Shown here: positions 4,542 through 34,472 of the stretch, piece by piece | Layout of the letters: each line of letters starts with the position of its first letter | How positions within the stretch are numbered: position 1 is the first letter of the stretch | Source: Actinomycetota bacterium | GTDB lineage: Bacteria; Actinomycetota; Actinomycetes; S36-B12 | Length of the DNA: 43,108 nt | Direction: 5' to 3' | Assembly: GCA_029978585.1 (NCBI GenBank) | Contig: JAPOJD010000003.1 | Location: 1-43,108 of the forward strand | Program-made: the position numbers and the translations under genes | The notes under the pieces: model-generated | Database searches by the model: none | Told to the model about the DNA's origin: nothing | Seen by the model: the letters and a program-made list of their open reading frames with translations, nothing else

Positions 4542-5765
4542 ATGCGGAGCGTCGAGGAGCACCAGCGGATCGCCCTGGAGGCGGTGCGCCCGCTCGAGCC
4601 CATCACGCTCCCGCTGCTCGACGCCGCCGGCTGCGTCCTCGCGGAAGACGTGAGTGCGGCGTGGCCCCTGCCGTCGTTCGACAACAGCTCCATGGACGGC
4701 TACGCCGTGCTGGCCGCGGATGTCGCGGGCGCCTCGGCGGAATCCCCGGTCACGCTCGACGTGGTGGACGACGTGCCCGCGGGCTACCGCGCCACCGAGC
4801 GCGTCGCCCCGGGCCGCGCGATCCGCATCATGACCGGGGCGCCGCTGCCCGATGGGGCGGATGCCATCGTCCCGGTCGAGGCGACGGATGCGGGCACGGA
4901 CCGGGTCGAGATCCGTTCGCCGGTAGCGCCGGGCTCCTACATCCGGCGCGCCGGCGAGGATGTCCTTGCCGGCACCCCGGTGCTCGAGGTGGGCACCGTG
5001 CTCACCGCGCGCTCCATTGCCCTGGCGACCGCGGTGGGGCGCGCCGAGGTGCGCGTGCACCCGCGTCCGCGCGTCGTCGTGATCTCCACCGGCAATGAGC
5101 TCGTCGATCCCGGGGTGCCGCTGCGCCACGGGCTCATCGCGGACTCCAACAGCGTCATGCTCGTCACGGCGGCACGCGAGGCGGGAGCCACGGCGTACCG
5201 GGCGGGGCCGGTCCCCGACGACGAGGAGCGGCTCATGGCCACGCTCGACGACCAGCTCGTCCGGGCCGACCTCGTCATCACCTCCGGCGGCGTGAGCATG
5301 GGCGCCTACGACACGGTGAAGGCGGTGCTCTCGCGAATCGGCACGGTCGAGTTCGTCAAGGTGGGCATGCAGCCGGGCATGCCGCAGGGCTTCGGGGTGC
5401 TCGGCGACGATGCCATCCCGATCGCGACGCTGCCCGGCAATCCCGTGAGCGCCTATGTCTCCTTCGAGGTGTTCGTGCGTCCGCTGATCCGCCGGATGAT
5501 GGGGTTCGAGCGCGTTCACCGTCCGGCGGTGACCGCCGTGTGCACGGCGGCGTTCGACTCGCCGGCGGGCAAGACGCAGTTCGCGCGCGTCCAACTGCGC
5601 GTGGAGGACGGTCGGTACGTCGCCTACCCGGAGGGCGCGCAGGGCTCGCACATCCTCGGCGGCCTCGCCCGGGCAGACGCACTCGCCGTCATCCCGCCCG
5701 AGGTATCGCGCGTCGAGCAGGGCGATGCCGTCACCGTCATCGACCTGCGGAGGGACGAGCCGTGA
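4542..5765 (+). CDS. moeA: Gephyrin-like MoeA/Glp protein
   Basis: 407-aa MoeA-family protein. It has FDNSSMDGYAV (residues 47-57), the domain III motif STGNELVDPG near 183 and LPGNPVSAYVSFE near 297, so all MoeA domains are present. Classical MoeA inserts molybdate into molybdopterin-AMP. In Corynebacterium the homologue next to galU, called Glp, is a division protein that binds FtsZ and the membrane receptor GlpR. Here the gene is followed by moaC, which favours a cofactor role, and a few hundred bases later by a sepX/glpR homologue, which favours a division role. Start ATG 4542 is chosen; a GTG at 4530 overlapping the galU stop is possible. Ends in a GTGA overlap with moaC. Confidence 0.9.
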   Translation: MRSVEEHQRIALEAVRPLEPITLPLLDAAGCVLAEDVSAAWPLPSFDNSSMDGYAVLAADVAGASAESPVTLDVVDDVPAGYRATERVAPGRAIRIMTGAPLPDGADAIVPVEATDAGTDRVEIRSPVAPGSYIRRAGEDVLAGTPVLEVGTVLTARSIALATAVGRAEVRVHPRPRVVVISTGNELVDPGVPLRHGLIADSNSVMLVTAAREAGATAYRAGPVPDDEERLMATLDDQLVRADLVITSGGVSMGAYDTVKAVLSRIGTVEFVKVGMQPGMPQGFGVLGDDAIPIATLPGNPVSAYVSFEVFVRPLIRRMMGFERVHRPAVTAVCTAAFDSPAGKTQFARVQLRVEDGRYVAYPEGAQGSHILGGLARADALAVIPPEVSRVEQGDAVTVIDLRRDEP

Positions 5766-7576: not shown

Positions 7577-7650
7577 GGGGCTGTAGCGCAGTCCGGTAGC
7601 GCACCTCGTTCGCATCGAGGGGGTCAGGGGTTCAAATCCCCTCAGCTCAA
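7577..7650 (+). tRNA. tRNA-Ala(CGC)
   Basis: 74-nt cloverleaf: acceptor 7577-7583/7643-7649, D-arm GCGC/GCGC, anticodon stem CCTCG/CGAGG with loop TTCGCAT (anticodon CGC at 7611-7613), T-arm AGGGG/CCCCT with loop TTCAAAT, discriminator A. The G3-U70 wobble pair that specifies alanine is present. The terminal 1-72 position is a G-A mismatch. CCA is not encoded. A coding gene with a strong ribosome binding site starts right after the 3' end. Confidence 0.93.
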
Positions 7651-16648: not shown

Positions 16649-16719
16649 TCCCGGCTCGTCCAATGGCAGGACAAGAGACTTTGGATCTCTGAATGGGGGT
16701 TCGACTCCCTCGCCGGGAG
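16649..16719 (+). tRNA. tRNA-Gln(TTG)
   Basis: 71-nt cloverleaf: acceptor TCCCGGC/GCCGGGA, D-stem GTCC/GGAC, anticodon stem AGAGA/TCTCT with loop CTTTGGA (anticodon TTG at 16681-16683), T-loop TTCGACT, discriminator G. CCA is not encoded. The 3' end overlaps a self-complementary CGGGAGCTCCCG (16714-16725), which could pair after the tRNA is transcribed. Confidence 0.95.
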
Positions 16720-31996: not shown

Positions 31997-32002
31997 TAGG
32001 CT
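31997..32002 (+). promoter_or_regulatory. -10 box TAGGCT, leaderless start of dienelactone hydrolase
   Basis: TAGGCT with a 6-base gap to the ATG at 32009; no Shine-Dalgarno sequence. Confidence 0.62.
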
Positions 32003-32008
32003 GCCGCC

Positions 32009-32707
32009 ATGTCGACGATGCTCGAGATCGGATCCGGCGCGAGCGCGATGCCCGCCCTCTACGCGCAGCCCTCGTCGGGGCGCGGCCCCGGCGTGGTCGT
32101 AATCCAGGAGTGGTGGGGGCTGGTGCCCCACATCTCCTCCGTCGTCGACCGGCTCGCCGACGCCGGCTTCGTGGCGCTGGCGCCGGACCTGTACCGGGGC
32201 GAGACCACGACGGAGCCCGACGAGGCGGGCAAGCTCATGATGGGCCTGCGGGTGTCCCGGGCGGCAACCGACATCGCCACGGCGGCCGATCACCTCGTGC
32301 GCACCGGTGCGCTCCCCGACGATCGCGTGGGCGCCATGGGCTTCTGCATGGGCGGTGGCCTTGCGCTCCTCGCCCCTACCGTGAGCCCGCACATCGTGTG
32401 CACCGCGGCGTTCTACCCGGCGATGCCGTGGCCCGACTACCACCCCGCGTGGGCCAACTACGCCGGACGTGAGGCGCTCATCCACCAGTGCGAGTCCGAC
32501 ATCGCCTCGACGGGGCCTGACATCGCGCGCTACGCGGCGGAGATCGCATCGCATGGCGGCACCGCCGTCATCGTCGACTACCCGGGAACCCAGCACGCGT
32601 TCTTCAACGACGACCGGCCCGAGGTGTTCGACGCCGTCTCCGCCGCGGCGGCCTGGGAGAGCTCGCTGGCGCTGTTCCACCGCGTGCTCGATGGCCCGTT
32701 CGCCTAG
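32009..32707 (+). CDS. Dienelactone hydrolase family protein
   Basis: 232-aa alpha/beta hydrolase. The nucleophile is cysteine in GFCMGGG (Cys113), as in carboxymethylenebutenolidase. Glu34 in VIQEWWGL and His near 201 in GTQHAFFND complete the usual site. Dienelactone hydrolases open cyclic lactones in aromatic degradation, but no other such genes are here, so the natural substrate is open. It overlaps the UDG gene by 17 bases. Confidence 0.92.
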
Positions 32708-33395
32708 CCGGCGCCTCGCGGAGCTCGACCAGCGGATTATCGCCTGCCGTGCCTGCCCGAGGCTGGTCGCCTGGCGGGAGGAGGTGGCCCTGACCCGGAG
32801 GTCGGCGTACGCCGACCAGGAGTACTGGGGCCGACCCATCACCGGGTTCGGGCCCGTGCGCCCGGGGGTGCTCGTCGTCGGCCTCGCCCCGGCCGCTCAC
32901 GGGGCGAACAGGACCGGGCGCATCTTCACCGGCGACCGCAGCGGGGACTGGCTGTTCGCCTCCCTGCATCGCCTCGGCCTCGCGTCGCAGGCGGAGTCGG
33001 TCTCCCGCGACGACGGGCAGGAACTCAGCGGCGTGCGCATCACGGCCGCCGTGCGGTGCGCGCCGCCGGGCAACGCGCCGACCCCCGGGGAGCGCGACTC
33101 GTGCGCCCCCTACCTCGTCGAGGAGGTCGACATCACCGACCCGCCGGTGATCGTGGCCCTGGGCGGGTTCGCCTGGCAGTCGGTCCTGCGGACACTCCAG
33201 ACGCTCGGCGACGACATCCCCCGCCCCCGGCCCCGGTTCGGGCACGGCGCGACGGCGAGGGTCGGCTCGAGGTGGCTGCTCGGCTGCTACCACCCCAGCC
33301 AGCAGAACACCTTCACCGGCCGGCTCACCGAGCCGATGCTCGACGACGTCCTCGGCCGCGCCCGCGATCTCGCGGAGACCGGCGGCGTAGCCTGA
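32691..33395 (+). CDS. Uracil-DNA glycosylase, family 5 (UdgB-type)
   Basis: 234-aa iron-sulfur uracil-DNA glycosylase. Four cysteines for the cluster are at 19, 22, 123 and 138 (CRAC and [16 protein letters not shown]). Motif A is [10 protein letters not shown] (64-73), without the Glu/Asp typical of family 4, which points to family 5, known to act on uracil, hypoxanthine and xanthine. Motif [11 protein letters not shown] begins at His201. The start ATG 32691 lies within the end of the hydrolase gene. The gene ends 4 bases before a tRNA. Confidence 0.92.
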
Positions 33396-33399
33396 GGGA

Positions 33400-33473
33400 G
33401 CCCCCGTAGTCCAATCGGCAGAGACGCCCGGCTTAAACCCGGTCCAGTGAGGGTTCGATCCCCTCCGGGGGCA
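33400..33473 (+). tRNA. Atypical short tRNA with anticodon TAA (Leu-like)
   Basis: 74-nt tRNA: acceptor GCCCCCG/CGGGGGC, T-arm GAGGG/CCCTC with loop TTCGATC, anticodon loop CTTAAAC (anticodon TAA, reads UUA), discriminator A. The D-arm is leucine-like: a 3-bp stem GTC/GAC with an 11-base loop CAATCGGCAGA, close to the loop of E. coli tRNA-Leu(UAA). But the variable region is only about 5 nt (CCAGT), while bacterial tRNA-Leu has a long variable arm and about 85 nt. The top anticodon-stem position is a C-U mismatch. CCA is not encoded. Whether it is charged with Leu, or at all, is unclear. Confidence 0.8.
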
Positions 33474-33482
33474 CGGTCGGGA

Positions 33483-33510
33483 TTGCTTCGGCGGCCGAAT
33501 CGGTTAACGT
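33483..33510 (+). promoter_or_regulatory. Promoter of Bax-inhibitor-1 gene
   Basis: TTGCTT (33483-33488), 16 bp, TAACGT (33505-33510). It starts 10 bases after the tRNA and would give a leader of about 40 nt, containing the AGGAGGT ribosome binding site (33542-33548) of the next gene. Confidence 0.5.
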
Positions 33511-33557
33511 GGAAGGAGACCCGCAGACCGGGCCCCGTCCCAGGAGGTAGACCCAGC

Positions 33558-34472
33558 ATGCAGACCGCGAACCCGATCCTGTCCCGCATCGACCGCGACG
33601 CGGCTCAGGCAGCGTCGAGCTGCCCCGGCTTCGCCTACGAGGAGGGCCGTACTGCCGTGGCCGCGGCCCAGGCGCCGGCCCCGCAGGCGACCGCCGCTGC
33701 AACCTCCGCCGCCGTCCACTCCGCGGGGGCTGCCGACGCCGGCTACTACGCCGGTGTCCAGATCCCGGCCCCGGTCGGGCAGCGCGTCACCTTCGCCGAC
33801 GTCATGGTGAAGAGCGCCATCATGTTCGGGCTCGCCGTCGTCGGTGCCTTCGTCGGATGGGGGCTCACCGCGGCCGTCCCGGGCATCGGCACCGGGGTCG
33901 TGCTCGTGGCGACGGTGGGCACGCTCGTCCTCGGCCTGGTCAACGCATTCAAGCGCCAGGTCAGCCCGCCCCTCACCCTGCTGTACGCCGCCTGCTCCGG
34001 GATCTTCCTCGGCGCCATCAGCTACTGGTACAACGAGCTCGCCCTGCAGTCGGACTACGAGGGCCTCGTGCTGCAGGCGGTCCTCGCCACGTTCACGACG
34101 TTCGGCGTGATGCTCCTGCTCTACGGCACCGGCATCGTCAAGGTGAACGGCCGCTTCATGAAGATCATGATCGTGGCGATGGTGTCCTACCTCTTCATCG
34201 GCATCGCCTCGTTCGTGGCCGCCCTCTTGGGCGTCGGAGGCGGCTGGGGCTTCTACGGTGTCGGGACGCTGGGCCTCCTGCTGTGCGTCTTCGGCGTGGG
34301 GCTGGCGGCGTTCAGCCTCATGCTGGACTTCGAGGCCATCAAGCAGGGCATTGCGATGGGCCTGCCCGAGCGCGAGTCATGGCGGATGTCCTTCGGCCTG
34401 CTGGTCACGCTGGTGTGGCTCTACCTGGAGTTCCTGCGCATGTTCGCGATCATCGCGTCCGGCCGGGAGTAG
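33558..34472 (+). CDS. Bax inhibitor-1/YccA family membrane protein
   Basis: 304-aa integral membrane protein. About 85 soluble, Ala-rich N-terminal residues precede seven hydrophobic segments. Conserved BI-1 features include NAFKRQVSPPLTLLYAACSG and the C-terminal LDFEAIKQGIAMGLPERESWRMSFGLLVTLVWLYLEFLRM. Family members conduct Ca2+ or protons or affect membrane proteases; the role in actinobacteria is not established. ATG 33558 is set by AGGAGGT 9 bases upstream; the in-frame reading further upstream runs through the tRNA and is not coding. Confidence 0.93.
   Translation: MQTANPILSRIDRDAAQAASSCPGFAYEEGRTAVAAAQAPAPQATAAATSAAVHSAGAADAGYYAGVQIPAPVGQRVTFADVMVKSAIMFGLAVVGAFVGWGLTAAVPGIGTGVVLVATVGTLVLGLVNAFKRQVSPPLTLLYAACSGIFLGAISYWYNELALQSDYEGLVLQAVLATFTTFGVMLLLYGTGIVKVNGRFMKIMIVAMVSYLFIGIASFVAALLGVGGGWGFYGVGTLGLLLCVFGVGLAAFSLMLDFEAIKQGIAMGLPERESWRMSFGLLVTLVWLYLEFLRMFAIIASGRE

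Follow-up and report, generated by a model that had tools for sequence, protein, structure and literature searches.

A class-I-sized tRNA-Leu(UAA) gene of Actinomycetota, predicted to read UUA where the long-armed leucine tRNA is missing

Introduction

Bacterial tRNA-Leu(UAA), including the Streptomyces bldA product, belongs to class II of tRNAs and carries a long variable arm. According to a 2023 review, the long arm occurs in tRNA-Leu everywhere but in animal mitochondria. Animal mitochondrial tRNA-Leu(UUR) likewise serves the UUR codons without a long arm and owes its identity to A73 and A14, as described in PMC9976931. The same paper reports that in E. coli A73 is crucial and A15-U48, G18G19 and A20a are essential for leucine identity, and that E. 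coli tRNA-Leu variants without the long arm remain active. Among actinobacteria, PMC6582537 mentions a leucine anticodon in a body with a short variable loop, for a tRNA-Leu(TAG) encoded in a tRNA gene cluster of the Mmuc and Mpho mycobacteria. This gene is, however, an extra cluster copy found with an HNH endonuclease gene; it stands beside the normal long gene and is not the sole reader. In a literature search outside which most subscription journals lay, this remark was the only mention of a short-armed bacterial tRNA-Leu in the texts available. Allo-tRNAs, as presented in PMC7609411, are also unusual bacterial tRNAs recovered by sequence searches, but their acceptor branches are of the 8/4 or 9/3 type.

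The tRNA gene analysed here comes from an Actinomycetota bacterium (assembly GCA_029978585.1). It shares with class II tRNA-Leu(UAA), bldA included, the anticodon UAA, A73, A14, A15-U48, the GG(C/T)AGA D-loop and a short D stem, but its variable region has 5 nt, in contrast to 12-17 nt in 19 long Leu genes, and it falls into a separate tree group; usually a GCCCCCG-type acceptor stem is a further difference between the two. As with bldA, no other reader of UUA was found in the searches of family genomes and of Demequina aestuarii, but the long arm is missing. Unlike the animal mitochondrial tRNA, the anticodon branch of which is partly unfolded, it is a well-paired bacterial tRNA. An allo-tRNA was ruled out, the acceptor/T branch having the normal 7/5 form (7-bp acceptor stem, 5-bp T stem) rather than 12 bp split 8/4 or 9/3. 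The short tRNA-Leu(CAA) of Actinomycetota (locus L044 in the same genome) has the same 74 nt, NCAGU variable region, D-arm, A15-U48, A73 and tree group; it differs in the anticodon CAA and in occurring also where the UAA gene is long.

Results

Structure and surroundings of the gene

The window (the whole 43,108-nt stretch of DNA that was analysed) contains the following features at the locus, all on the + strand; the evidence is given in brackets.

32469..33395, +, uracil-DNA glycosylase superfamily (UDG) gene directly upstream of the tRNA (Pfam PF03167, E 7.6e-25; ORF list)
33400..33473, +, class-I-sized tRNA-Leu(UAA) gene, 74 nt, CCA unencoded (ARAGORN; Rfam RF00005; presence in 33 of the 35 genomes of the family)
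33400..33406, +, acceptor stem, 5' strand, pairing with 33466-33472 (sequence; covariation, as detailed below)
33409..33425, +, D-arm with a 3-bp stem (33409-33411/33423-33425), a C13.A22 mismatch and A14A15 at 33413-33414 (sequence)
33427..33443, +, anticodon arm, loop CTTAAAC at 33432-33438, positions 27-43 unpaired (sequence; fold; covariation)
33434..33436, +, anticodon UAA, fitting codon UUA (ARAGORN)
33444..33448, +, variable region CCAGU, 5 nt, U48 at 33448 (sequence)
33449..33465, +, T arm with a 5-bp stem (sequence; covariation)
33466..33472, +, acceptor stem, 3' strand (sequence; covariation)
33473, +, discriminator A73 (sequence; conservation, as given below)

ARAGORN called a tRNA-Leu(taa) at 33400-33474, and Rfam model RF00005 matched 33400-33473 with 53.1 bits (cut-off 29), which bears out the original prediction that this is a real tRNA gene. 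The class-I size, the UAA anticodon, the leucine-like D-arm, A73 and the variable region of about 5 nt that it had described were all found correct by direct reading of the sequence. Both the gene and its homologues, with 5 nt each, fall short of the variable arm of at least 10 nt that marks class II. The D loop holds A14, A15, G18, G19 and A20a, and its GGCAGA is as in long tRNA-Leu; 136 of the 144 short Leu genes share the motif GG[C/T]AGA, as do 17 of the 19 long ones. A C27.U43 mismatch opens the anticodon stem.

Folding energy is ordinary (z -1.23; 22 of 200 shuffles fold equally well) and makes a weak argument, which was dropped. Among 132 distinct short UAA genes, however, both partners of a pair vary in each of the four stems: in acceptor pairs 2-71 to 7-66, in all five anticodon-stem pairs, in two of three D-stem pairs and in three of five T-stem pairs. 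The fold is thus more than chance. All 132 contain the C13.A22 mismatch and the NCAGU variable region, part of them having been retrieved by a pattern demanding CAGT. Judged by its evolution, the short UAA tRNA is a working RNA. A pseudogene reading was set aside on the same grounds as the alternatives discussed below.

The stop codon of the UDG gene and the start of the tRNA are 4 nt apart, and the next gene after the tRNA is Bax-inhibitor-like. A scan of 32000-34000 for sigma-70-like promoters and for terminators found none, although chance alone would also yield hardly any hits there and the scan covered this promoter type only; the tRNA may thus be co-transcribed with the UDG gene. Several genomes of the same genus have the tRNA at the UDG gene's 3' end, with a varying strand relation (same or convergent): loci L004-L007 and L012 contrast in this respect with L001, L002 and L009. 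Other ordinary tRNA genes in the window stand singly, for Ala(cgc) at 7577-7650 and for Gln(ttg) at 16649-16719 (ARAGORN, Rfam). A 95-nt tRNA-Glu(ttc) called by ARAGORN at 5478-5572 was unconfirmed by Rfam and is probably a false call. The codon UUA, expected to be rare, accounts for 2 of 10,687 codons in an in-frame count over 28 ORFs of the window picked by GC3.

Conservation in the family and order

A blastn search with the gene against 59 genomes (relatives and the own genome) matched 38 of them. ARAGORN named Leu(taa) at all 20 loci taken first and at 13 further loci of the same family, i.e. in 33 of 35 own-family genomes, so the proposed search of related genomes revealed a conserved gene. 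Among the 35 family loci taken by similarity, the two that are not Leu(taa) are Arg(ucu) genes; the match in genome G019 is such an Arg(ucu) gene, and genome G009 (79% complete) gave no blastn match for the short UAA gene.

The own genome (assembly 91% complete) yielded 26 tRNA hits, in which leucine is represented by the gene at 33400-33473, a 74-nt CAA gene and one long GAG gene. A canonical long tRNA-Leu(UAA), which was to be sought elsewhere in this genome, is absent among these hits, and the long-armed Leu(UAA) pattern matched 0 of 35 own-family genomes. The proposal of a second, minimal Leu(UAA) tRNA therefore comes nearest of the three put forward as far as "minimal" is concerned; no first one was found for it to be second to.

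The long pattern matched 14 of 24 order-mates. It is incompletely sensitive, having missed the long gene of G038, and with ARAGORN the long gene was located in 15 order-mates (G038 added) and the short gene in four of the five members of family f7. In five order-mates (G039, G041, G047, G051 and G055) neither form was settled. The one clear exception is G054, an order-mate MAG (83% complete) which carries both the short and the long Leu(UAA) gene, at loci L094 and L110 on different contigs; this reflects either contamination or a transitional state.

Short and long forms across Actinomycetota

A phylum sample of 396 genomes was searched with the short UAA and long Leu(UAA) patterns; a looser UAA pattern was too noisy in low-GC genomes, and narrower ones were used instead. 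The short pattern matched 62 genomes (reversed-pattern control 1), and ARAGORN named Leu(taa) at 28 of the 29 loci (L113-L141) taken from these matches. The long pattern matched 168 genomes; control hits occurred in 21 genomes, so that a few of the 168 matches are due to chance. Only one genome (G358) matched both patterns, and its long-pattern string is not tRNA-like. This near-exclusion of the two forms over the 396 genomes gives a Fisher p of 1.6e-15, with kinship uncorrected. About 167 genomes fit neither pattern, which means that the patterns miss genes. Within family f25 (38 genomes) the short form was found in 18 genomes, the long in eight and both in none (Fisher p 0.0035; the long-pattern strings of G111 and G358, which are not tRNA-like, were set aside). 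Families f16, f23 and f54 also contain both kinds, in different genomes.

A narrower pattern applied to named genomes gave at least 119 loci, 40 of which, from isolates, were picked (Cellulomonas, Demequina, Cutibacterium, Aeromicrobium, Actinotalea and others). The long Leu(UAA) pattern matched none of these 40 named isolates carrying the short gene. In Demequina aestuarii NBRC 106260, Rfam detected 45 tRNAs, all named by ARAGORN, with 43 anticodons. Its leucine tRNAs, one each, are UAA and CAA with short 74-nt bodies and UAG, CAG and GAG with long ones; among the 45 there is no long UAA gene and no other UUA reader by ordinary pairing rules. Since the short genes lie nearly always where a long-armed UUA reader was not found, the short tRNA is predicted to insert leucine at UUA there.

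The same distribution bears on the suggestion that the molecule has a non-translational role, e.g. as an aminoacyl donor or a regulator. The great rarity of UUA in the window and the unusual tRNA body would suit such a role. It is nevertheless extremely improbable because the short form and the long one, the sole alternative reader fitting UUA, nearly exclude each other, and in view of the family loci taken by similarity, which are called as Leu(taa) in 33 cases out of 35 and as Arg(ucu) in the other two.

Amino acid predicted to be inserted at UUA

The LeuRS alignment comprised 30 genes, with frames chosen by BLASTP; those of G054 and G019 were kept outside both groups compared. The UUA codons of the short-gene genomes, 19 codons from five of 14 genomes, fall on 16 LeuRS columns, 15 of which are mainly leucine and one mainly alanine. 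The 14 other genomes (nine with an ARAGORN-called long gene and five without a settled form) have leucine in 194 of 224 residues at these columns. In the reverse test, the UUA codons of the 14 comparison genomes fall on 38 LeuRS columns, 35 of them mainly leucine in the short-gene genomes. In this one gene, LeuRS, the codons matching the short tRNA thus stand at leucine positions (15 of 16 columns).

The LeuRS model reached its cut-off in 45 of the 59 genomes, and among the matches listed no genome of the 59 had a second LeuRS above the cut-off. Several assemblies have an incomplete LeuRS or none; in the own genome it is an N-terminal piece at a contig end.

The nucleotides A15, U48, G18G19, A20a and A73 are present in all 33 own-family genes, which were retrieved by blastn and not by pattern. 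In the 132 distinct short UAA genes, A15, U48 and G18G19-N-A20a occur in all and A73 in 130; one of the two exceptions (L220) was framed one base early by ARAGORN. As the phylum-wide short patterns fix U48, this position is no evidence outside the own family. The own genome also has A15-U48 in tRNAs for Arg, Lys, Gln and Gly(ucc), so that this pair alone does not prove leucine identity. Within its set of 26 distinct tRNAs (Met unparsed, Pro(cgg) misread), A73 accompanies A15-U48 in only four: Lys(cuu) and the three for leucine.

It had also been suggested that the tRNA is charged with another amino acid, which would make UUA a recoded codon in these genomes. The tRNA is without the arm typical of bacterial tRNA-Leu, Arg(ucu) ranks second in similarity to it within the own genome (54 of 73 bases), and one of the 16 LeuRS columns holding UUA is an alanine column, all of which would agree with recoding. 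The remaining 15 columns are mainly leucine, though, A15-U48 is joined to A73 in the own genome only in the three leucine tRNAs and Lys(cuu), the 45 tRNAs of Demequina aestuarii include no other fitting UUA reader, and the short tRNA takes the place of a leucine tRNA instead of accompanying it. We consider recoding highly improbable. The best reading of the gene at 33400-33473 is that it encodes an ordinary leucine-inserting UUA reader, predicted from sequence, in an unusual body.

Relationships and origin

The tRNA of the own genome closest to that at 33400-33473 is the short Leu(CAA), with 59 of 72 aligned bases, ahead of the Arg(ucu) tRNA. In Mycobacterium tuberculosis, leuX (CAA) is also about 74 nt long. 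A quick tree that used 87 of the 163 distinct leucine tRNAs, built on 66 columns after removal of the anticodon and the variable region, separated a long group from a short group with 99% SH-aLRT on each side and placed the tRNA studied with the short Leu(CAA), apart from the long Leu tRNAs. CAA and UAA genes intermix in the short group. A single short UAG gene (L224, contig labelled Cyclobacteriaceae) sits among the long genes.

The short CAA pattern matched 44 of 59 relatives, some of which have the UAA gene in its long form, and eight of 37 genomes of the same class; all eight loci are Leu(caa) according to ARAGORN, and five of the eight genomes match the long UAA pattern. We infer that the short CAA gene is the older one and that the short UAA gene arose within its family and displaced the long gene on more than one occasion; this order of origin (CAA first) draws on the distribution and on the tree of 66 columns, with 40 of its 82 inner branches weak.

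Phage genomes also contain relatives of these genes. The short CAA gene was matched by 75 phage records (Erwinia 29, Mycobacterium 19, Corynebacterium 6, others), 35 of them over at least 80% of the gene, and the 20 among the matches listed are annotated as tRNA-Leu; two phage records match the short UAA gene. Short Leu genes with UAA, CAA or UAG anticodons (L259, L211, L224) were seen on contigs labelled Aureispira (22 tRNAs), Phycisphaeraceae (17) and Cyclobacteriaceae (4), and the long tRNA arrays on the Aureispira and Phycisphaeraceae contigs look like phage tRNA arrays.

These phage relatives (75 records for CAA, two for UAA), the tRNA arrays and the presence of both forms in G054 could be taken to mean that the gene is a supernumerary or mobile, phage-derived tRNA beside a normal tRNA-Leu(UAA) that escaped detection. 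We regard this as very unlikely. The gene is present in 33 of 35 family genomes, the long pattern appears in none of the 35 and in none of the 40 named isolates, the 45 Demequina aestuarii tRNAs include no long UAA, and the flanking UDG and Bax-inhibitor-like genes are not phage genes.

Discussion

The gene at 33400-33473 is interpreted here as a member of an Actinomycetota-wide, class-I-sized tRNA-Leu(UUR) family. In this lineage it is found where the long tRNA-Leu(UAA) is missing; it would be the sole UUA reader and is predicted to be charged with leucine by the ordinary LeuRS. We assign this interpretation a probability of about 0.9. LeuRS would accept the short tRNA through A73, A15-U48, G18G19 and A20a, elements that act in E. 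coli without involvement of the long arm. The short UAA gene would have arisen in the short UUR family, the CAA member of which persists beside a long UAA gene in relatives, and the long UAA gene would then have been lost.

For the phylum as a whole, the comparison of genomes makes it probable that the class-I-sized tRNA-Leu(UUR) family took over UUA decoding from the long-armed tRNA several times and that the leucine tRNAs are consequently split into short UUR and long CUN readers served by one LeuRS. Short genes are annotated as tRNA-Leu in public records, e.g. in those of Mycobacterium phages, while the size class, the spread and the role as UUA reader of the short tRNA-Leu appear to be undescribed so far. 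The rule of a long arm in every bacterial leucine tRNA will likely have to be amended, and a widespread bacterial exception would overturn it for tRNA-Leu.

Two tRNA bodies recognized by one LeuRS would constitute a natural experiment in tRNA recognition. The exchange has a bearing on UUA as the switch codon of Streptomyces development. Isotype checks based on the arm may mislabel tRNAs that are likely essential, and designers of orthogonal leucine tRNAs could make use of the short body. The main interest lies not in the single gene but in what would be a phylum-wide exchange of two tRNA bodies for one codon.
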